From: Fluctibacter corallii | Lineage (GTDB): Bacteria > Pseudomonadota > Gammaproteobacteria > Enterobacterales > Alteromonadaceae | Length of the DNA: 64,000 nucleotides | Direction: 5' to 3' | Assembly (NCBI RefSeq): GCF_025751585.1 | Contig: NZ_JAOWKX010000001.1 | Span: forward strand, 259-64,258 | In this document: one piece after another, positions 28,153-52,801 of the stretch | Layout of the letters: the number at the start of each line of letters is the position of its first letter | How positions within the stretch are numbered: the first letter of the stretch is position 1 | Notes under the pieces: generated by a model | What the model was told of the DNA's origin: nothing | What the model saw: the letters and a program-made list of their open reading frames with translations, nothing else | Database searches by the model: none | Position numbers and translations under genes: made by a program

Positions 28153-29454
28153 ATGGTGGAGCCTAAGGACAAACCATGCATTCTTTGCGTTGACGACGAG
28201 GAAGAAATTCGATTATCGCTGAAACGGTGTTTGCGTAAACTAGATGCAAATATCCACTTGGCTCCCGATGCCAAGCAGGCATTAGACTTTCTCTCTCAGC
28301 ACGATGTTGATGTTATTATTTCAGACATGCGCATGCCTGGAGCTTCCGGAGCTGAGTTGTTTCAGCATGTGGTCACTCATTATCCCGATACATATCGCAT
28401 TATGCTAACTGGATTTGCCGACATTGAATCAACGATTCAAGCCATCAACTTAGGGCGCGTACACCGTTTTATCTCTAAACCATGGGACAACCAACAACTT
28501 GAAGAAGACGTAAAAGGCGGTATTGAATATGCCCGCGTTAAACGTGAAAACATTCGGCTCACGGCGTTAGTCACAAAACAAAATGCTGCGCTAACAAGCA
28601 TGAATCAAGATTTGGAAAAGCAAGTGAAAGTGAGAACGAAACAAATTCGTGCCGCACTTGCAAAAATTCATAAAGAGCAGGATGTGATGCACCAAATGCT
28701 GTTCAACTTTATCAACGTTGATCCTTATATTGATTCGCTTTTTGCCAAGAGTGTGAAACGCCTTGCGAACCGTATTGGTGAGAAAATGCAATTGAGCGAA
28801 AAATATATCGATGCGCTGAAAACGGCAGCGTTAATGTCTGAAGTCGGATTATTAGGCGTCGACAACCGTATTTTGATGCAACCTTTTCATAAGTTGAATG
28901 CCGCACAGCGAGAAGCGTACCTGCAACAAGTAACCTATGTAGATTTAATTCTCTCACCCGCCACCCACCTCAATGACGTGAAAGACATGATTATGAGTCA
29001 ATATGAACATGTTGATGGAAGCGGGTTTCCGAATAAGCTTGTGGCTGACTCCATTCCTTTAGGTTCTCGGATTATCGCTATCGCACGTGACTTTTGGCGC
29101 TATGTCGGTGGTAAATTAACAGGAAGCAAAATGGAGTTCGAAGAGGCGAAAAAGATGCTAATGCGTTACAAAGGAACCCGCTACGATCCTCTTGTACTCA
29201 ATGCATTGATGCAAATAAAATCTTTTGACAGCGCAAATGCCATGGAACAAAAACTATCAACTAAAGATCTTAAACCCGGCATGATTCTTAAGGCAAACCT
29301 ATATACAGACAATCACTTTCTATTGTTGTCGGCAGGACACGAGCTGACCACATCAACGATTCAAAAGCTGAAACAGTTTGAAGTTAAACAGCGCAAATCG
29401 TTGTTTCTCGCCATCGACGAAACTGACAATACAGCTGCCCAAGGAGAACTGTAG
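28153..29454 (+). CDS. Response regulator with degenerate HD-GYP output domain (HnoD-like)
   Basis: The 433-residue protein has a receiver domain (about 8-125) with phospho-acceptor Asp58, acidic pair Asp14-Asp15 and Lys109. A coiled coil at about 130-180 leads to an HD-GYP-like domain (about 185-360) and a C-terminal extension. The catalytic residues of HD-GYP are lost: the HD pair reads Ser229-Glu230 (AALMSEVGLLG), and the HHE-GYP stretch reads QYEHVDGSGFP. So it should not hydrolyse cyclic-di-GMP. In Shewanella and Vibrio NO-signalling networks, a receiver/degenerate HD-GYP protein (HnoD) modulates an EAL phosphodiesterase. The convergent H-NOX/kinase pair here makes that the best guess. 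The ATG is only two bases from GGAG; the next codon, GTG, has better spacing. Confidence 0.82.
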   Translation: MVEPKDKPCILCVDDEEEIRLSLKRCLRKLDANIHLAPDAKQALDFLSQHDVDVIISDMRMPGASGAELFQHVVTHYPDTYRIMLTGFADIESTIQAINLGRVHRFISKPWDNQQLEEDVKGGIEYARVKRENIRLTALVTKQNAALTSMNQDLEKQVKVRTKQIRAALAKIHKEQDVMHQMLFNFINVDPYIDSLFAKSVKRLANRIGEKMQLSEKYIDALKTAALMSEVGLLGVDNRILMQPFHKLNAAQREAYLQQVTYVDLILSPATHLNDVKDMIMSQYEHVDGSGFPNKLVADSIPLGSRIIAIARDFWRYVGGKLTGSKMEFEEAKKMLMRYKGTRYDPLVLNALMQIKSFDSANAMEQKLSTKDLKPGMILKANLYTDNHFLLLSAGHELTTSTIQKLKQFEVKQRKSLFLAIDETDNTAAQGEL

Positions 29455-29595: not shown

Positions 29596-31110
29596 TTAAC
29601 TATCAACGTCGCTATCGATTGGAAGAATAACTGAAAATTCAGTGCCTTCTCCTAACTTAGATGAAACACTAATAATGCCATGGTGAGACTCTACCATAGC
29701 ATAGGAAATGCTTAGCCCAAGCCCAGTTCCTACCCCCACAGGTTTAGTGGTATAAAAGGGAGTGAACAGTTTATTAAGGGTCTCCTCCGACATTCCTATT
29801 CCTGTATCTTTGATAGCCACTTCAATCCAGCTATTCGTATTTTGACCTGCGTGTAATCCTGTTGGAGGCTCGTTCAATACTGAACTATGAATATGTAAAG
29901 TTCCACCATCGGGCATGGCCTGAGCGGCGTTAACAAGCAAGTTTACAAATATCTGTTGTAGCTGGCCTGCATTGCCTTTAATTAAAGGCAATGTTTCTGG
30001 TAAGCGATTGTCGATTTCGTGATGATACTTAAATGCATTTTTTGTGACCTGCAATGACTTATCAATCACGTCACGCAAATTCACCCACGCATGTTTCGCA
30101 TCGCCAGCATGTGAAAAACTTTTCAAACTATCTACAATCGCCTTTATGCGCGACAAACCCTCAATATTTGCCTGTGTCAGCGCGTCAATATCCTGCTTCA
30201 TCTCATCGAATTGAATAGAAGCAATTGCATCACGGATATTTTCAATTGTGAGGTGATTCTCACTATCAATAATCGCTTCAATGATTTTGCTAATATCATC
30301 AAAATATTCACTAAGCACACCAAGGTTTGCGCGCAAATATCCTATTGGATTATTGATTTCATGGGCAATACCCGCCGCTAATTGTCCTAGCGACGCCATT
30401 TTTTCCGATTGAATCAAACGAGCTCTGGCCTCAGTTAACTCACTCACCGTCTTTTTGAGCGCATCATTTTGCTGGCGTAACTCAAATTCTCCTATTCTCC
30501 GCTTCAAACCGCTGAACATTTGCCTTCTGGTGATTTCAAGTGCATCCGTCATGCCTTGTAACATCGACGCTTCTCGATTGAAATGAAGAAAGAGCCAATA
30601 ACGCGTATCAAAAAATTCAAATAAACAATAATAAAACAGCCCATGATTGACTCGCTTCGTGTGCCAACATTTGTCAGAAGGGGGCGCATTCAGAATGAAT
30701 GAAAGGGTGTCTGCTGATAATGAGCGAATAGCAGGCGTAGATTGTTCAACCTCACTATTTAACTCATGTTCAAACCACAGCACTTCGTCTGCCTGACTAT
30801 ATTTTGTGAGCAGTACCGACATGTCATCCATGAATTGTGCAATAGTGGATTCAGACAGGTTGATTTCTGCCGCCTGCCCTAAAAATGCCATTTCTTGTTG
30901 CTTCTTCTGCGAAGCTTCTAGTGAATAATGTAGCTTTCGATTTTCGGTGCTTTGACTAACTATCTCTTTGTGTAAATCGGTCTCTGAAAGCTGAGAGACA
31001 GTATGGCTTTGCGCGTTTCTCTTATTACCAGCCATTTCTAGAGCAGTTTCAGAGCGCTTCTTTCCCAGAGTATTTGAACGGCTTCTTGAGGGTGCTTCGT
31101 GCTTAGTCAT
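29596..31110 (-). CDS. Soluble sensor histidine kinase paired with H-NOX protein (HnoK-like)
   Basis: The kinase of about 504 residues has no membrane helix. It has a basic low-complexity N-terminus (1-55), a coiled coil and a roughly 130-residue region of unknown fold (about 80-205). A signalling helix (QQNDALKKTVSELTEARARLIQ) is followed by HisKA with phospho-His near residue 250 (GIAHEINNP). HATPase_c has N box NLLVNAAQAMPDGG, G1 DTGIGMSEE and G2 GVGTGLGLSIS. The ATG at 31110 shares its A with the TGA of the H-NOX gene (TGATG), so the two proteins are made together and probably form a complex. The convergent response regulator, about 140 bp away, is the likely phosphotransfer partner. Confidence 0.9.
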   Translation of the reverse strand: MTKHEAPSRSRSNTLGKKRSETALEMAGNKRNAQSHTVSQLSETDLHKEIVSQSTENRKLHYSLEASQKKQQEMAFLGQAAEINLSESTIAQFMDDMSVLLTKYSQADEVLWFEHELNSEVEQSTPAIRSLSADTLSFILNAPPSDKCWHTKRVNHGLFYYCLFEFFDTRYWLFLHFNREASMLQGMTDALEITRRQMFSGLKRRIGEFELRQQNDALKKTVSELTEARARLIQSEKMASLGQLAAGIAHEINNPIGYLRANLGVLSEYFDDISKIIEAIIDSENHLTIENIRDAIASIQFDEMKQDIDALTQANIEGLSRIKAIVDSLKSFSHAGDAKHAWVNLRDVIDKSLQVTKNAFKYHHEIDNRLPETLPLIKGNAGQLQQIFVNLLVNAAQAMPDGGTLHIHSSVLNEPPTGLHAGQNTNSWIEVAIKDTGIGMSEETLNKLFTPFYTTKPVGVGTGLGLSISYAMVESHHGIISVSSKLGEGTEFSVILPIDSDVDS

Positions 31111-31652
31111 CAAGGCAACTTCACGATTTCTATTTGGCAGTCATCATCCCCTTCATGGACACACTGCAAATGATTAATTTCAATCGCCTCACGAAAATAA
31201 TCACTGGCTCCCAATAAAATACCTTCACACAGAAAACATAGGTGTCTTGGTGAGGTATACCGAAAGACAAGCTTTTGAGACGTCTGCTGCAAAAATACAA
31301 AATGTGGAAGTTGAAGGTGAGAATCAATTCGTTGAGCGTTTGGGTAAACCGTATTTTCTACGCTGAGAATAAATGAAAATAGATCCGTGTCACTATTGTT
31401 CCCACTAGCAGGCAACGAATGGAGTGTAGAAAACAGCTTGCGGCCAAAACCAACTAAGACATCTTCTGGCGTATCATCCCGCAGAGCAACGACACTAGAA
31501 ATAATATCGTAAAATACGCGGTCTTTAATAACGCCAGTATGTATGTCTTCGGTTACAGGTAGATTTGCTACTTCAGCACTTTGTTGCCAAACCACGCGCC
31601 CCCATTTAGAAACAATATATTTTTCTAATTCAACGAGTATCATCCCCTTCAT
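31110..31652 (-). CDS. H-NOX family sensor protein with Tyr in place of the heme-ligating His
   Basis: The 180-residue protein aligns end to end with bacterial H-NOX sensors: MKGMILVELEKYIV at the start, then the heme-propionate-contacting YxSxR motif (Tyr132, Ser134, Arg136). It then reads LCFLCEGILLGASDYF. In H-NOX proteins of this length the proximal heme ligand is His at 102-103 in the pattern I-H-x-x-V. Here residue 103 is Tyr (SVENTVYPNAQR), by ungapped alignment to the conserved LPH segment. Cys139, His161, Cys164 and Cys172 are all present, matching the zinc-binding set described in Vibrio/Shewanella relatives. So it could bind heme through Tyr, or work without heme as a redox sensor. 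It is translationally coupled to the histidine kinase. The family call is firm; the ligand is unknown. Confidence 0.88.
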   Translation of the reverse strand: MKGMILVELEKYIVSKWGRVVWQQSAEVANLPVTEDIHTGVIKDRVFYDIISSVVALRDDTPEDVLVGFGRKLFSTLHSLPASGNNSDTDLFSFILSVENTVYPNAQRIDSHLQLPHFVFLQQTSQKLVFRYTSPRHLCFLCEGILLGASDYFREAIEINHLQCVHEGDDDCQIEIVKLP

Positions 31653-32928: not shown

Positions 32929-34557
32929 TTATGCGCAACCTTGCTGAATAATTGTTTTCAGTGAATCGGTTGAGTAATGCGCTAGGTCTGCAAAGTACTC
33001 CTGAAGGAATGTTTCAAAACTTAATTTATCGTTGCTTTCTATATCTTTTTGAGCATTAATCGACTGAGTAGCCATGTGAACAAAGTCAGATTCGTGTGTT
33101 AATTCGTAAGCCTCTGTTAAAAAGCGCGCACGATACTCTTCCGCCATTTCTCGGCCAAGAATACCATTATCTTTATTCTGAACCTTCAACAAATTGAGCA
33201 ATCGTCCACTTGGCGTGTTACTGGGATCCACAAATTTGAGCCACTGACGCTCAAGCGCTTCAGAAAACGTAGTTGTCTCATTCACTTCGTCAAGGATTTT
33301 TGCGATCGACCGAAAAGATTCAAACACTTCTTCTGCCCACTGCTTCATCTCAATTGACGTTTTATCTTTAGATAAAGTCAATGAGGGCGCTCGTCCTTCT
33401 ATTACAACTTTCTTTAAGTTGTCTTCAGTTTCTTGATAAGACTCCCGTGTAAACGCGGAGCTCGGCGCTATCAAGCAATAGACCATAAAAATGTCGAGAA
33501 AATAAAAGTGATCGGGTGAGATACCTACGTCACTGAATGGGTCTACATCCAGTGCTCTAACTTCAATATAGTTGACCCCGCGAGCCTCTAGCGCATCGGT
33601 AGGCTTTTCTAGCGACTGGGTGGGCTGCTTAGGACGTACTGGCGAATACAGCTCGTTTTCTATTTGAAGTACATTCGCATTAAGTTGCTGATACTCGCCA
33701 TTTTCAGGTGCAAACTTTTGATAGGCTTGAGACGGTGAGCTCTTTGCAGCCCTTAATGAGGCAATATACGAATTCACGTCATTGTAGCAAATCATTAACC
33801 CAGACTGGGCTGAGTTGGTGTATCCCAAGTCGCTCATTCTAAGCGATGTTGCATAGGGCAGATAAATAGTGCCATTGCCCAATGATTCAAAAGGTAACGA
33901 TGTTTTTTTGCCTTTCACGAATGAACCACAAAGCGCGGGCGAAGCACCAAATAGATAAGGGATCATCCAACACAATCTGCGGTAATTTCGAATCATTCCA
34001 AAATAAGCAGCAGAAATGGAGTCTTTATCCACTGTACCAGTATGGGTTTTCTCAAGCCATGCCGTCCAGAAACTATCTGGTAACGAAAAATTGAAATGTA
34101 CGCCAGATATCGCTTGCATCATACTACCGTAACGGTTCTTTAACCCCTTTCGGTACAATGTTTTCATTTTTCCAACGTTTGAATTGCCATATTTAGCAAG
34201 TGGGATACTGTCTTCGTTCTCAATGAAGCAGGGCATACTCATAGGCCACAAGCGTTCCTGACCAATGTTTTTTGCAACAAACCGATGAATATCTCTAAGC
34301 TGTGAAAGTGTTGTTTCGGGCTTTCTCTCTGGGGGAGTAATAAACTCAAGCAATGACTCAGAAAAGTCTGTCGTGATTAGGTCATGAGTCAGCGCAGCCC
34401 CAAGTGTTTGCGGGTGCGGTGTTAAGGCCAAAGAGCCATTCTCATTAATACGTAATGTTTCCCGCTCTACTCCGTGACGAATGTCTGTCAGCGTAGATTT
34501 CACTGAGGCGTCTTTTAAAACATCTAAACGCCCTTCAAAGGTTAAAGTTCTTGTCAA
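32929..34557 (-). CDS. gshA: Glutamate-cysteine ligase
   Basis: GshA makes gamma-glutamylcysteine, the first step of glutathione synthesis. The 542-residue protein fits class I (proteobacterial) GshA. It has RHGVERETLRIN near residue 28, FSESLLEFITPP, SGVHFNFSLPDSFW, and YIEVRALDVDPFSDVGI with the Arg/Glu residues that bind substrate. The start is TTG at 34557 with AGGA six bases upstream; no ATG is available in frame nearby. It is last before a strong terminator. Confidence 0.95.
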   Translation of the reverse strand: MTRTLTFEGRLDVLKDASVKSTLTDIRHGVERETLRINENGSLALTPHPQTLGAALTHDLITTDFSESLLEFITPPERKPETTLSQLRDIHRFVAKNIGQERLWPMSMPCFIENEDSIPLAKYGNSNVGKMKTLYRKGLKNRYGSMMQAISGVHFNFSLPDSFWTAWLEKTHTGTVDKDSISAAYFGMIRNYRRLCWMIPYLFGASPALCGSFVKGKKTSLPFESLGNGTIYLPYATSLRMSDLGYTNSAQSGLMICYNDVNSYIASLRAAKSSPSQAYQKFAPENGEYQQLNANVLQIENELYSPVRPKQPTQSLEKPTDALEARGVNYIEVRALDVDPFSDVGISPDHFYFLDIFMVYCLIAPSSAFTRESYQETEDNLKKVVIEGRAPSLTLSKDKTSIEMKQWAEEVFESFRSIAKILDEVNETTTFSEALERQWLKFVDPSNTPSGRLLNLLKVQNKDNGILGREMAEEYRARFLTEAYELTHESDFVHMATQSINAQKDIESNDKLSFETFLQEYFADLAHYSTDSLKTIIQQGCA

Positions 34558-48147: not shown

Positions 48148-51100
48148 TTATTGCCTCTCAACTTCGGTTGTCCAACTTTCCTTTCTCACACGCTCAAAAA
48201 CACCGTAAATATTCTGCGCTAAACACTCAAAGTTTGTTCCGCAGTTTTCAGGGTTGCCATCTTCATCAACTTCAATTACGGCAGAGGTACATTCCGTTCC
48301 AAGACAGACAACTGGTTTGATAATATCTTCGATGAGTATTTTAGTTTCTGGGGCTATCCCTGTTTGTTGTAAATCTGCAAAGCGATCTTGGTGCTCAGTT
48401 TGGTTATCACCGTCTAAATCAGTCACAGCATTTCCGTTGATTAACTCAACAAGATATGCCCTACTTTTTCCCGCTGGAGGCGCACAAGCGCTCTGGCTCG
48501 CAGTTGATGGCACATAAGTCGTAAAGAATAGTTTGTAATTAATGATAAGCGGTGATGCTAGCACTTTTTCTCCACCACTGCCCAAACGAATGTGCCACCC
48601 CGATTTTGTGGCAAATGCCTCGGCTTCAAGCTCTCGTGTCGAGCTATCGCTATCAGTTAAAAGGTGATTGGTAGCATCATAGACATCTGCGAATCCTAGC
48701 GATGAAGTGGGCAATGAATATTCGCCATTTGTATTGATATTAAATACACCATTATCTTTAATCATGAAAAAATGATCTTGAATGACAGCATTAAGGGGAT
48801 GTGCCCTATAACCTGAGCCAAGCGCTACAGCATAATAGTGTTCATTAGCCAAGCTTATCTCTGACACATCTGGTCCATAAAAGAACCTACGGTTATTCTC
48901 TTCACCTGCACCGGAAAAATCAGCAAGCAAGCCTCCTTTGACTAAGGTACTTGTTCCGTTTCCATTATAAATATCCAGTCTAAACAGTTGTGCGCCCATA
49001 TCTGCGACATACATATGATCGGCATACCCATCTCCTTCACGGTCAATCACCGAGATTCTTGCGGGAACACTATAATTCATATCAGTTAAAACAAGATCAG
49101 CATTCGCACTACTTGCTGACCATAGCAATTGACCGCTATCAGCATCCACCATAAACACGGCGTTACCCTCTGAGTCCTGCGTGCGGGTTAAATAGTTATC
49201 TTGGTCTTCATCGTATCCGCCACCAAAGATCAGAACAGTTTTACTGCTTCCGCCGATATTAACCTTTGTTAAAGTAGGACGAGACCAGCTTTGACCTAGC
49301 TTTTCAAATCCGGGAGAACCGCCTTCGATTTTAAACAGCAAGCTTGGATTTGTTTTACTGGTGATGTCAAAAGCATAGTAGTTGCGCCCCCCTCTACGCA
49401 TGCCAACGTAAAGGATTTTTTGCGTACCTGTATCGCGGTAAACTAGGTCGCCATCTAGACCGTATATATGTGAAAATGTTGAGCCATCTTGATAGAAGTC
49501 GTAAAGATTTCTTAGGAGCTCTTTCGGGATAATAGCAAAATTCTCTTCTCCCGTTTCTGCATCAAACGAATGCAAAAAGCCTTGGTTAGTCGCCACGAGT
49601 ATGGCGCTATCATTGGCTGAGTAATTGATAATCACAGGTTGAGAATGAATAGGATCTCCCATTTGCGTTCTCGCATCGTCAGTATATCCATCACCATCAT
49701 CATCTTTTACATCAATGCCTCTTGCCCACTTCAATAGTTGGGTACGAACCGTTTCTTTATCAGCCACACTGTCTATCGCCAAATCTATGGTGGAAATTGC
49801 GCTGTTTGACTCATGCAAATTATTTGCAGATGTAACAATGCTTCCGGGATCGCTGAACATATAAATTCGTCGACTTACGTCTAGAAGACTAGCTGCGCCG
49901 CCCTCTCTCACATCGTTGCCGTCAGCTAGAACAGACCAGTAACTATGGGAGTTTTCAGAGAAGAAACCCGATCCACTATCAACCGCTGGGTTTCCATTTT
50001 TATCCAGAATAACATCGCCGTTTATTTTGTATTTCTTTAAATTACCTGGCCAGATAGTGCCTTCTGCGGGCTTAAATAACGCGAAATATAGCTCATTTTT
50101 GTGGGTTAATCGGTTTAATTGGTTGACTGCAACACCCGGTGAAACGAAAGTTGCATTTACATCTTTCACCGTTTTTAGAATTTGTTGAAATGCCGTGACC
50201 AAGTCAGTACTGTTGTCGGCTTGATAGAAACCACCGCCACCTTGAAGCGCTAATTGATTTAAGAAGTTGTTCGCCGTTGAGTTTGCAGCGAACCCAATGG
50301 TATGAGTAACGACACGTGCATCAATCACTGTATCGCCCGTATCACTCACATTCTTAACGAGATCTAAACCACATTTTTCTCCACCACTCCCTGAACAAGA
50401 CGTGTTAAGCAGCGCCTCAATCTTAGATACACTGTGATTGTTATTCGCTTCACCGTCAGATAACAACACAATATGGTTATTTGTTTGGCACTGGAGGTCT
50501 GTAACAGGCGAGATATATTTGGCTCCGCTAGGTATATATTCGCCAATACAGTAACTGCCACTTAAATTGTCTTCTGAACATCCGGGAGGAAGTACCGAAT
50601 CGGCGCCAACATACGACAGTCGATTACTCACACGGGTGTTTCGTCTAACAGTAGAGCTCACTGAAGAATCGCCACGCTTAGTACCATAGTCGACATTTCT
50701 ACCACCATAGTAATTCACCGCTTCGTACAGTGTATCAACAATAGGGGTGTAACCACTTGCTGCTAATTCGTCAACTTTACTAATCAAATGTTCTCGTACA
50801 GTAGATGTAGTTCCAGGACTCGCATCACCCTGATATTTTATCGTTAGTTGCGCTGCCCCTGAGGGTTTACCTTTGTACGTATAGCCGCCTCGAAAACCAG
50901 AGAAGTCAGACAAAACAAATGCCATATCATTCCCTGATGTCCAGCCGGACCGGTTAACCAGCGATTGGACAATAGAGGATACATCAGGGCTTTGATATGT
51001 ATTGTTTTTATACCAGCTAGGAATGCCCGACCAATTGACTCCCGCTGTTTTTGGCTTGTTTCGAAGTAAATATCGAGAATACGGATGGAAGTCATTGGGA

Positions 51101-52224
51101 TCATCTTCATTAACACCACGAATAACCATTGAAGCACTGCCACCTGTATAATGTTGGTAGGCTGTTAAACTTAAGTGAGCACTAACAATTGTTACACCTT
51201 TAGGCACCGCGATATTTTTGAAACGGATGCCAATGTATCGGTTATTATTGTCATTCAACGTCAGCTCGCTACCCGTTGAATCGTAGCCATCCCAACGCTC
51301 TTCAGCATTGTCTTTTTGTGTATTTACCTGATATGAAAGTTCACCAGTCACACAACCTGTCGCAGTAGACTCATCATACGACACCACTAACTGCGGTGCC
51401 CAGCCAGAACCTTCATCATGAGAAAATGCTTTTCTGTCGCTGGCACTGCTTGTACTCGATCCCTCTAAAATAAGCCCCAACGCATTACCACCACACCAAT
51501 CATTCTGATCCACAATTTCTTGGATAACACTGATTAAAGAAGGCGTAGAAATCGTTTCTTCGGACAGCGGAAAATCATTATTTGACGTCCAATCAACAAA
51601 CGCTGTCGTCTTAGTTCTATCACTAATATCATTACTCGTTGCCTGAAAAGCCTGCGCATTAGCAGACAACTCCCCACTTATCTTAATGTTGCTCGACGCT
51701 GAATTAAGAATATGAGATGTAAACCGAATATACGCGTTGGTAATAACCGCGCCTTTAGGAATATTGACACCTTCAAACCGTAAACCCGTTGTGACATTGT
51801 CGGTTCCTGCAGTTAACACCAATCCATCATCGTTCAACGTAACAACACCAGAACGTTCTGACGCATCATTATTAGATGCTCCGACTGGAATTACGAGCTC
51901 GGGTTGAACAGCATCGTCTATCGGCCGAATAGGGTATAGCACAGGCCCACCGAGATCAGAGAAACGCATTAAGCCCGCATTAATATTAGTCGCTGACTGC
52001 AATGTTTCTTTAAGCGCTTTTTGAACTCTAAGCATGCGAGATTCGGTTCCGCCATCTTTACCCGCCATACTGCCCGATGTATCCATTATAAAAAGTACAT
52101 TTGGATCGTAGGTAGCCGTTTCATTCCCCGTTCCCAAATATATTTCTAAATCATCAGCAAAGCCTACATTACAAAGCAAAAGCGTAGATAGTAATATTGA
52201 GAAAGAATACTGTAGAAATTTCAT
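48148..52224 (-). CDS. pilY1: PilY1-like type IV pilus assembly/adhesin protein
   Basis: The 1358-residue secreted protein sits at the pilus tip or outer membrane and promotes pilus extension and adhesion. It has a signal peptide (FSILLSTLLLCNVGFADD). An N-terminal von Willebrand A-like domain carries the MIDAS motif DTSGS (residues 48-52). The C-terminal PilY1 beta-propeller contains calcium-loop motifs such as DDDGDGYTDDA. I chose the ATG at 52224, with GAGG upstream, over a frame reaching into pilX. The gene lies 13 bp after pilX. Confidence 0.92.
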   Translation of the reverse strand: MKFLQYSFSILLSTLLLCNVGFADDLEIYLGTGNETATYDPNVLFIMDTSGSMAGKDGGTESRMLRVQKALKETLQSATNINAGLMRFSDLGGPVLYPIRPIDDAVQPELVIPVGASNNDASERSGVVTLNDDGLVLTAGTDNVTTGLRFEGVNIPKGAVITNAYIRFTSHILNSASSNIKISGELSANAQAFQATSNDISDRTKTTAFVDWTSNNDFPLSEETISTPSLISVIQEIVDQNDWCGGNALGLILEGSSTSSASDRKAFSHDEGSGWAPQLVVSYDESTATGCVTGELSYQVNTQKDNAEERWDGYDSTGSELTLNDNNNRYIGIRFKNIAVPKGVTIVSAHLSLTAYQHYTGGSASMVIRGVNEDDPNDFHPYSRYLLRNKPKTAGVNWSGIPSWYKNNTYQSPDVSSIVQSLVNRSGWTSGNDMAFVLSDFSGFRGGYTYKGKPSGAAQLTIKYQGDASPGTTSTVREHLISKVDELAASGYTPIVDTLYEAVNYYGGRNVDYGTKRGDSSVSSTVRRNTRVSNRLSYVGADSVLPPGCSEDNLSGSYCIGEYIPSGAKYISPVTDLQCQTNNHIVLLSDGEANNNHSVSKIEALLNTSCSGSGGEKCGLDLVKNVSDTGDTVIDARVVTHTIGFAANSTANNFLNQLALQGGGGFYQADNSTDLVTAFQQILKTVKDVNATFVSPGVAVNQLNRLTHKNELYFALFKPAEGTIWPGNLKKYKINGDVILDKNGNPAVDSGSGFFSENSHSYWSVLADGNDVREGGAASLLDVSRRIYMFSDPGSIVTSANNLHESNSAISTIDLAIDSVADKETVRTQLLKWARGIDVKDDDGDGYTDDARTQMGDPIHSQPVIINYSANDSAILVATNQGFLHSFDAETGEENFAIIPKELLRNLYDFYQDGSTFSHIYGLDGDLVYRDTGTQKILYVGMRRGGRNYYAFDITSKTNPSLLFKIEGGSPGFEKLGQSWSRPTLTKVNIGGSSKTVLIFGGGYDEDQDNYLTRTQDSEGNAVFMVDADSGQLLWSASSANADLVLTDMNYSVPARISVIDREGDGYADHMYVADMGAQLFRLDIYNGNGTSTLVKGGLLADFSGAGEENNRRFFYGPDVSEISLANEHYYAVALGSGYRAHPLNAVIQDHFFMIKDNGVFNINTNGEYSLPTSSLGFADVYDATNHLLTDSDSSTRELEAEAFATKSGWHIRLGSGGEKVLASPLIINYKLFFTTYVPSTASQSACAPPAGKSRAYLVELINGNAVTDLDGDNQTEHQDRFADLQQTGIAPETKILIEDIIKPVVCLGTECTSAVIEVDEDGNPENCGTNFECLAQNIYGVFERVRKESWTTEVERQ

Positions 52225-52237
52225 TACACTTTCCTCA

Positions 52238-52801
52238 CTAATTTGATGCCGGGGCAAATACAGCCACATTGAGTGAATTGGCCACCGCAAACGCCGAGCC
52301 GCTGACCTGCCCGCACCCACGAACCATAAAGACGTGGCAATTCACATTGCTTCCACCGATGACGTTACTTGAACCTAAACACGACTTTTCTCTTACAAAT
52401 GCGGTTTTAGACCAACTGTTAATATCCGGATTAGACTGAAATTTACCCGCACCATTGTGTTGAGCACCTTGATTCAATCCCCCTTCGGTTACGCGTCGTT
52501 GAGTCCAATTCACATTATCAAAGCAACTCAAATCTTGGTTTACTAAATCTATTTGGGCCCCTTGCCTTGCCTCTGACAACGGATCTAATAAATTTGGATT
52601 GGTTAGTAACACTTTGTCTTCTGCTTCGAATACCACACCTGCAATAGCAGCTTCCGCTGCATCAAATGCCAATGATTTATTCTCCATAGATACGGCCATC
52701 TTATTCTGCATTAAACTGCTCGATACTGATGCAACACCAAGAATTGTCATGCTCATCAAAACAAGTAGAGCGAACACCATTACCATTCCATACTGCTTCA
52801 T
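52238..52801 (-). CDS. pilX: Minor pilin PilX
   Basis: The 187-residue protein has a short leader and hydrophobic N-terminal helix (YGMVMVFALLVLMSMTILGVASVSSSLMQNKMAVSMENKSLAFDAAEAAI). This is the PilX pattern in which Glu5 is not conserved. Cysteines occur in the C-terminal half (CFDN, CLGS, CHVF, CGQV). Its start overlaps the pilW stop (ATGA-like), so translation is coupled. Confidence 0.88.
   Translation of the reverse strand: MKQYGMVMVFALLVLMSMTILGVASVSSSLMQNKMAVSMENKSLAFDAAEAAIAGVVFEAEDKVLLTNPNLLDPLSEARQGAQIDLVNQDLSCFDNVNWTQRRVTEGGLNQGAQHNGAGKFQSNPDINSWSKTAFVREKSCLGSSNVIGGSNVNCHVFMVRGCGQVSGSAFAVANSLNVAVFAPASN

Follow-up and report, generated by a model that had tools for sequence, protein, structure and literature searches.

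According to the accessible part of the work on Vibrio cholerae H-NOX (PMC7108781), the Cys174-Cys182 and Cys149-Cys177 pairs form and the zinc site rearranges when the heme-free protein is oxidised, and in this oxidised state it inhibits its kinase HnoK. The same source calls the proximal heme His "absolutely conserved" in its published survey of 598 sequences. For Caulobacter H-NOX, the sections available (PMC12329717) report that the NO form is non-inhibitory and that oxidation inhibits HnoK; hypochlorite oxidised all thiols and also changed the heme, while diamide spared the heme and activated partly. Group 5 H-NOX form a large group in which, in the excerpts at hand of a later review from the V. 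cholerae work (PMC8738867), fewer than 10% keep the proximal His, most have Pro in its place and no Cys is conserved; loss of the proximal His is therefore not new in itself. On the output side, the available portion of PMC6335343 presents HnoD as a degenerate member of the HD-GYP proteins and as a suppressor of the phosphodiesterase HnoB. Here we describe an H-NOX in which an intact zinc set and a missing proximal His occur in one protein, a combination that we found in no listing. In the open-licence literature we found no account of a zinc-type H-NOX lacking the proximal His, and no paper matching H105Y or H103G.

An H-NOX homologue with Tyr at the proximal heme position

The window, the 64,000-nucleotide stretch of DNA analysed here, encodes a 180-residue protein (Table 1) that scores 86.7 bits with the HNOB Pfam profile, against a curated cut-off of 25.5, and has the H-NOX fold. 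The protein is an HNOB family member by descent and fold, in agreement with the preliminary description, which had assigned it to the bacterial H-NOX sensors; profile, fold and gene neighbourhood together identify it as an H-NOX homologue. The host genome (4.1 Mb, 99.96% complete) holds this single HNOB copy.

Table 1. Positions of the H-NOX gene, its key residues and the coupled genes in the window
Feature	Position	Strand	Basis
H-NOX (HNOB) homologue, 180 aa, Tyr103	31110..31652	-	Pfam profile
Predicted helix F, residues 91-109, contains Tyr103	31326..31382	-	helix prediction and consensus comparison
Tyr103, codon TAC, in the position of the proximal heme His	31344..31346	-	alignment
YTSPR, residues 132-136, kept YxSxR heme-propionate motif	31245..31259	-	alignment
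Cys139, predicted zinc ligand	31236..31238	-	alignment
Cys142, fourth Cys and only other one; CxxC with Cys139	31227..31229	-	sequence
His161, predicted zinc ligand	31170..31172	-	alignment
Cys164, predicted zinc ligand	31161..31163	-	alignment
Cys172, predicted zinc ligand	31137..31139	-	alignment
HnoK-type histidine kinase, 505 residues, HisKA and HATPase_c	29596..31113	-	domain matches
Predicted phospho-acceptor His of the kinase H-box (AHEINNP)	30361..30363	-	sequence
Response regulator, receiver and HD-GYP-type domain, HnoD-like, convergent	28153..29454	+	NCBIfam NosR family

The TAC codon for Tyr103 falls on the site of the proximal heme His of Shewanella oneidensis H-NOX. A heme-based H-NOX NO sensor has this His on helix F; with Tyr there, and the proximal His as the defining feature, the window protein does not belong to that class. 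The YxSxR residues are all present (Y132, S134 and R136), as had been claimed, and the zinc set, defined for zinc-type H-NOX (groups 2/3 of PMC7108781) as three Cys and a His or Gln at positions 139, 161, 164 and 172, reads CHCC and is intact, as was also proposed at the outset. The protein contains exactly four Cys, at 139, 142, 164 and 172. Besides YxSxR it keeps Pro116, Gly3, Gly70 and Gly144, and it has lost the consensus residues Tyr42, Glu46, Glu105 and Val106.

Comparison with 27 relatives, using as consensus the columns that reach at least 60% among 93 zinc-type rows, revealed that these losses are unevenly spread along the protein. In the helix-F stretch (residues 96-110) the window protein keeps 0 of 8 consensus positions, against 4-8 in the relatives, and in residues 1-66 it keeps 7 of 19 (relatives 14-19). 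Retention is 5 of 7 in residues 67-95 (relatives 6-7), 4 of 6 in residues 111-131 (relatives 4-6) and 13 of 18 in the zinc-bearing end, residues 132-180 (relatives 12-16). The change is more than a single substitution: the whole helix-F consensus is gone and the zinc end is conserved normally.

Rarity and descent of the Tyr103 protein

Among the matches listed, 354 H-NOX rows were scored at position 103: 350 have His, one has Asp, two have a gap and the window protein alone has Tyr. The preliminary description had placed Tyr103 at the proximal His position, and the alignment bears this out, with His in 350 of the 352 listed rows that have a residue there. Full zinc sets (three Cys and His or Gln) occur in 244 of the listed rows, and 243 of these have His103; the remaining one, the only zinc-intact row lacking His, is the window protein. 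The rows came from the 174 of 395 family genomes that gave a match, with at least one H-NOX locus each (second or third copies in some of these genomes lie outside the set), from 16 loci of a GTDB scan and 29 loci of an order-level search, and from 157 proteins of two profile searches, the second contributing 120 of 488. Identical sequences count as one row, the 395 family and 394 order genomes are each drawn from a larger group, and the rows are related by descent, so the counts are not independent events.

Close relatives were sought in several ways. A protein search with the single sequence returned the query itself as the sole match among 77 candidates, and a pattern scan with the window protein through the GTDB r220 genomes found no relative. 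Scanning GTDB r220 with an alignment gave the 16 loci, at most 34% identical and none a close relative, and the best non-self match in the 394 genomes of the order-level search was 33% identical. The genus is represented by one genome in the data set examined. The "functional branch" of the H-NOX family first envisaged thus stands, so far, at one sequence from one genome, with no second His-less zinc-type row among the 354 matches listed.

The proximal His has been lost naturally a second time, to Asp103, in a clade that has no zinc set (locus L077, 1495-2031, plus strand; locus L191, 4961-5500). No kinase frame lies beside the L077 gene, whose neighbours, named from a reading of the frames, are a parC-like frame and, opposite, metabolic genes.

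In a 47-row tree, which took in 18 of the 27 clade relatives, the window row joins these 18 (16 zinc-intact, 18 of 18 with His; support 97/93). A larger tree, reduced from 187 to 182 rows by omitting those shorter than 150 residues, places it with all 27, of which 25 are zinc-intact and all have His (SH-aLRT 96). Since His is found in all clade relatives, the loss of the heme His is derived. No end branch in the 182-row tree is longer than that of the window row (2.56, median 0.14; in the 47-row tree it measures about 2.5 changes per site), and the exact place of the row is therefore unsure. A zinc-type H-NOX, known here from one genome, thus lost the heme ligand along a single long branch and shows no visible decay. 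Two relatives in the clade, L052 (NHCS) and L076 (HLSC), have lost zinc residues and kept His; set against the window protein, they indicate that heme and zinc ligands were lost separately, in both directions. Outside the clade, L067 (CCCS) and L157 (GISF) likewise lost zinc residues and kept the heme His, the mirror of the window protein.

The kinase, the regulator and their neighbourhood

The coupled kinase that had been predicted is present: an ATG of a HisKA/HATPase_c frame, at 31110, shares one base with the stop codon of H-NOX. Beyond it lies a regulator that scores 434.9 with the NCBIfam NosR family, against a cut-off of 400. The window thus has the H-NOX/HnoK cassette, an adjacent kinase and a nearby regulator, and the cassette recurs: of 10 relatives examined, all 10 have a kinase match beside H-NOX and 7 have the regulator. 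The HD motif of catalytic HD-GYP phosphodiesterases is a His and Asp pair. In the window regulator this pair is Ser-Glu, which sets it apart from the catalytic enzymes, and in the alignment of the window with those 7 relatives all 8 regulators lack the His and 7 of the 8 lack the Asp. The window regulator resembles HnoD in missing the HD pair. NCBIfam calls the HnoK-adjacent regulator of the window and the 7 relatives a c-di-GMP phosphodiesterase; with the His replaced in all 8, that name is likely wrong for this clade.

The kinase was compared with 25 of the 27 relatives (L126, taken without flanking sequence, and L038, which gave a short downstream frame only, were left out). Its catalytic part has a median identity of 48% (the 25 relatives 46-60%) and the H-box is kept; the end branch of the kinase core is 1.43, against a median of 0.23, the third longest of 33 rows. 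Given this long branch, the whole cassette, and not the sensor alone, may have sped up. The N-terminal, probable input part is only 19% identical, against 22-44% in the relatives, and has the longest branch. The sensor and the probable receiver part of the kinase thus changed in concert, and since the kinase input part has diverged too, the output logic may differ from that of known HnoK systems.

The window and L193 have the same gene order (M16 peptidase, gshA, transglycosylase, H-NOX, HnoK and convergent regulator), and L196 has it from gshA onward, as far as the fetched piece reaches; a search of 13-14 kb in each of the remaining 8 relatives did not find the flanking genes. The glutathione synthesis gene gshA (32929-34557, minus strand) lies two genes upstream of the cassette. 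It is also present beside the His-bearing genes of L193 and L196, so this neighbourhood is not specific to the Tyr variant. Identities for window-L193, window-L196 and L193-L196, respectively, are 31, 34 and 70% for H-NOX, 38, 35 and 50% for HnoK, 46, 44 and 53% for the regulator, 61, 62 and 62% for gshA, and 81, 70 and 66% for the transglycosylase. Of the three cassette genes, H-NOX has the highest identity between L193 and L196 and the lowest against the window.

A promoter scan found 8 candidates, with 6.7 expected. No FIST domain, as would mark NosP as a replacement NO sensor, was found in the host genome, which has one NnrS; the organism may therefore still meet NO. Elsewhere in the window, a 1390-residue open frame (48148-52320, minus strand) has a weak von Willebrand A-type Pfam match and no NCBIfam match at E 1e-10.

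A proposed zinc-thiol switch, its alternatives and known systems

We put at about even the chance that the window H-NOX is a heme-independent zinc-thiol redox sensor regulating the adjacent HnoK-type kinase. It likely senses oxidation rather than nitric oxide and would pass the signal to the kinase; its mode of action probably resembles the redox mode of zinc-type H-NOX. The effect of oxidation on V. cholerae and Caulobacter H-NOX gives published precedents for this reading. In the reduced state zinc, whose binding we infer together with the absence of a functional heme, would be held by Cys139, His161, Cys164 and Cys172. Oxidants would lead to disulfides, probably Cys164-Cys172 and Cys139-Cys142. 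The altered zinc end would let the two subdomains turn about a Gly hinge, with Gly70 and Gly144 probably corresponding to Gly81 and Gly154 of V. cholerae H-NOX. This turn would change HnoK autophosphorylation and phosphorylation of the HnoD-like regulator, so that the putative chain, including the direction of kinase control, runs from oxidant through disulfides and turn to HnoK activity and HnoD-like output. Among 109 zinc-intact rows, 29 (the window included) have Cys142, 19 have Cys141 and 2 have Cys167, and the other 59 have no Cys at any of these positions. In Caulobacter, according to the available text, the strongest oxidant altered the heme as well, and activity through the thiols alone was partial, which counts against the reading we favour. 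So do the kept YxSxR, Pro116 and Gly3, the restriction to a single genome, the long branch of the kinase core, the diverged kinase input part, and a fourth Cys that sits at 142 and not at the V. cholerae position.

An H-NOX that is blind to signals, locked in one kinase-regulating shape by the loss of the Fe-His bond, or that answers to a ligand other than heme gases and oxidants, with zinc purely structural, is unlikely. The divergence of both the sensor and the kinase input part would suit such a protein, as would Ile at residue 42, which is Tyr in 347 of 353 rows among the matches listed. In its favour, too, the S. oneidensis H103G mutant, whose structure is in the PDB (2kil), reportedly mimics the kinase-inhibitory state. 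Group 5 H-NOX, mostly His-less and with no conserved Cys, are described in the excerpts of PMC8738867 as having an unknown trigger. Against it, the zinc set and the CxxC were kept over the long branch of the window protein, in a clade where, as L052 and L076 demonstrate, zinc is dispensable.

In a second alternative, which we hold to be distinctly improbable, Tyr103 would coordinate an Fe(III) heme anchored through YxSxR, and the protein would sense redox state or heme, with a response to NO unlike that of a His-ligated ferrous protein. Residue 103 is Tyr rather than aliphatic and lies within predicted helix F. The kept YxSxR, Pro116 and Gly3 suggest that the pocket may still hold a porphyrin, and a Tyr-ligated or loosely held heme may be compatible with YxSxR and Pro116; the rest of the helix-F consensus is nevertheless gone, and Tyr appears in no second zinc-type row among the 354 matches listed. 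The preliminary description had left the choice between a Tyr-ligated ferric heme and a heme-free thiol sensor; with the helix-F consensus lost (0 of 8) and the zinc part kept (13 of 18), the heme-free option is the better supported and the Tyr-ligated heme falls behind.

Decay of the gene, with selection relaxed once the pathway had lost its use, is very unlikely. It would account for the longest end branch in the tree, and damaged copies do exist elsewhere in the family; yet the H-NOX frame is open, its stop overlaps the start of an open kinase frame, and the zinc end and, by identity, the kinase core are conserved normally. The genes of three relatives were each put through 2000 runs of simulated neutral drift, down to 33% identity. 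About 6 stops arose in each; the frame stayed open in 3, 3 and 0 of the 2000 runs, and the three zinc Cys all survived in 43, 50 and 44 of them. Drift to this identity thus almost never leaves the frame open, which argues against decay. The probable damaged copies seen in the same family are one H-NOX match interrupted by two TAG stops (G218:C33:20231-20701), one split over two frames (G180:C50:1364-1839) and a partial one (G072:C180:11454-11699).

An ordinary heme NO sensor with another proximal His is extremely unlikely: the candidates, His112 and His117, are no more than 14 residues from position 103, but both are outside predicted helix F, the pairwise alignment is ungapped there, and the S. 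oneidensis counterpart of His117 coexists with His103.

For the zinc-thiol sensor we favour, a broader history is possible, at somewhat less than even chance: on one lineage, likely within the Alteromonadaceae, an NO sensor would have evolved jointly with the input domain of the partner kinase into a dedicated heme-free zinc-thiol redox switch, discarding the heme ligand and the helix-F motif and keeping the zinc switch. That would mean that selection can maintain the redox activity described in vitro as a function in its own right. In a zinc-type H-NOX without the heme ligand, oxidant control of the kinase could not run via a His-ligated heme, and such a natural His-less protein would make the physiological role of the zinc switch directly testable.

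Among known systems, S. oneidensis H-NOX (SO2144; PDB 4u99 and 2kii; acting with HnoK) is about 28% identical to the window protein and binds zinc via the same four residues; it has His103, whereas the window protein has Tyr103 and a lost helix-F consensus. V. cholerae H-NOX, on the available portion of its description, shares the zinc-type Cys set and a proposed heme-independent redox route to HnoK, but keeps the proximal His, absent here, and can carry heme. Its Cys174-Cys182 pair is equivalent to Cys164-Cys172; its fourth Cys, Cys177, is equivalent to position 167, and Cys142 would have to stand in for it. Caulobacter crescentus H-NOX, in the sections available, is like our proposal in being kinase-coupled with an inhibitory state that comes from oxidation and not from NO, and differs in binding heme and NO, whereas the window protein has no heme ligand. 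Group 5 H-NOX (Paracoccus denitrificans type), as far as the excerpts of PMC8738867 describe them, mostly miss the proximal His, as here; they have mostly Pro and no conserved Cys, and the Tyr and full zinc set, with its three Cys, place the window protein outside that group. The H-NOX domain of the sGC alpha subunit, in the accessible text of PMC6839917, is a natural H-NOX domain that binds no heme, as proposed for the window protein, and differs from it in being part of a fused enzyme subunit.
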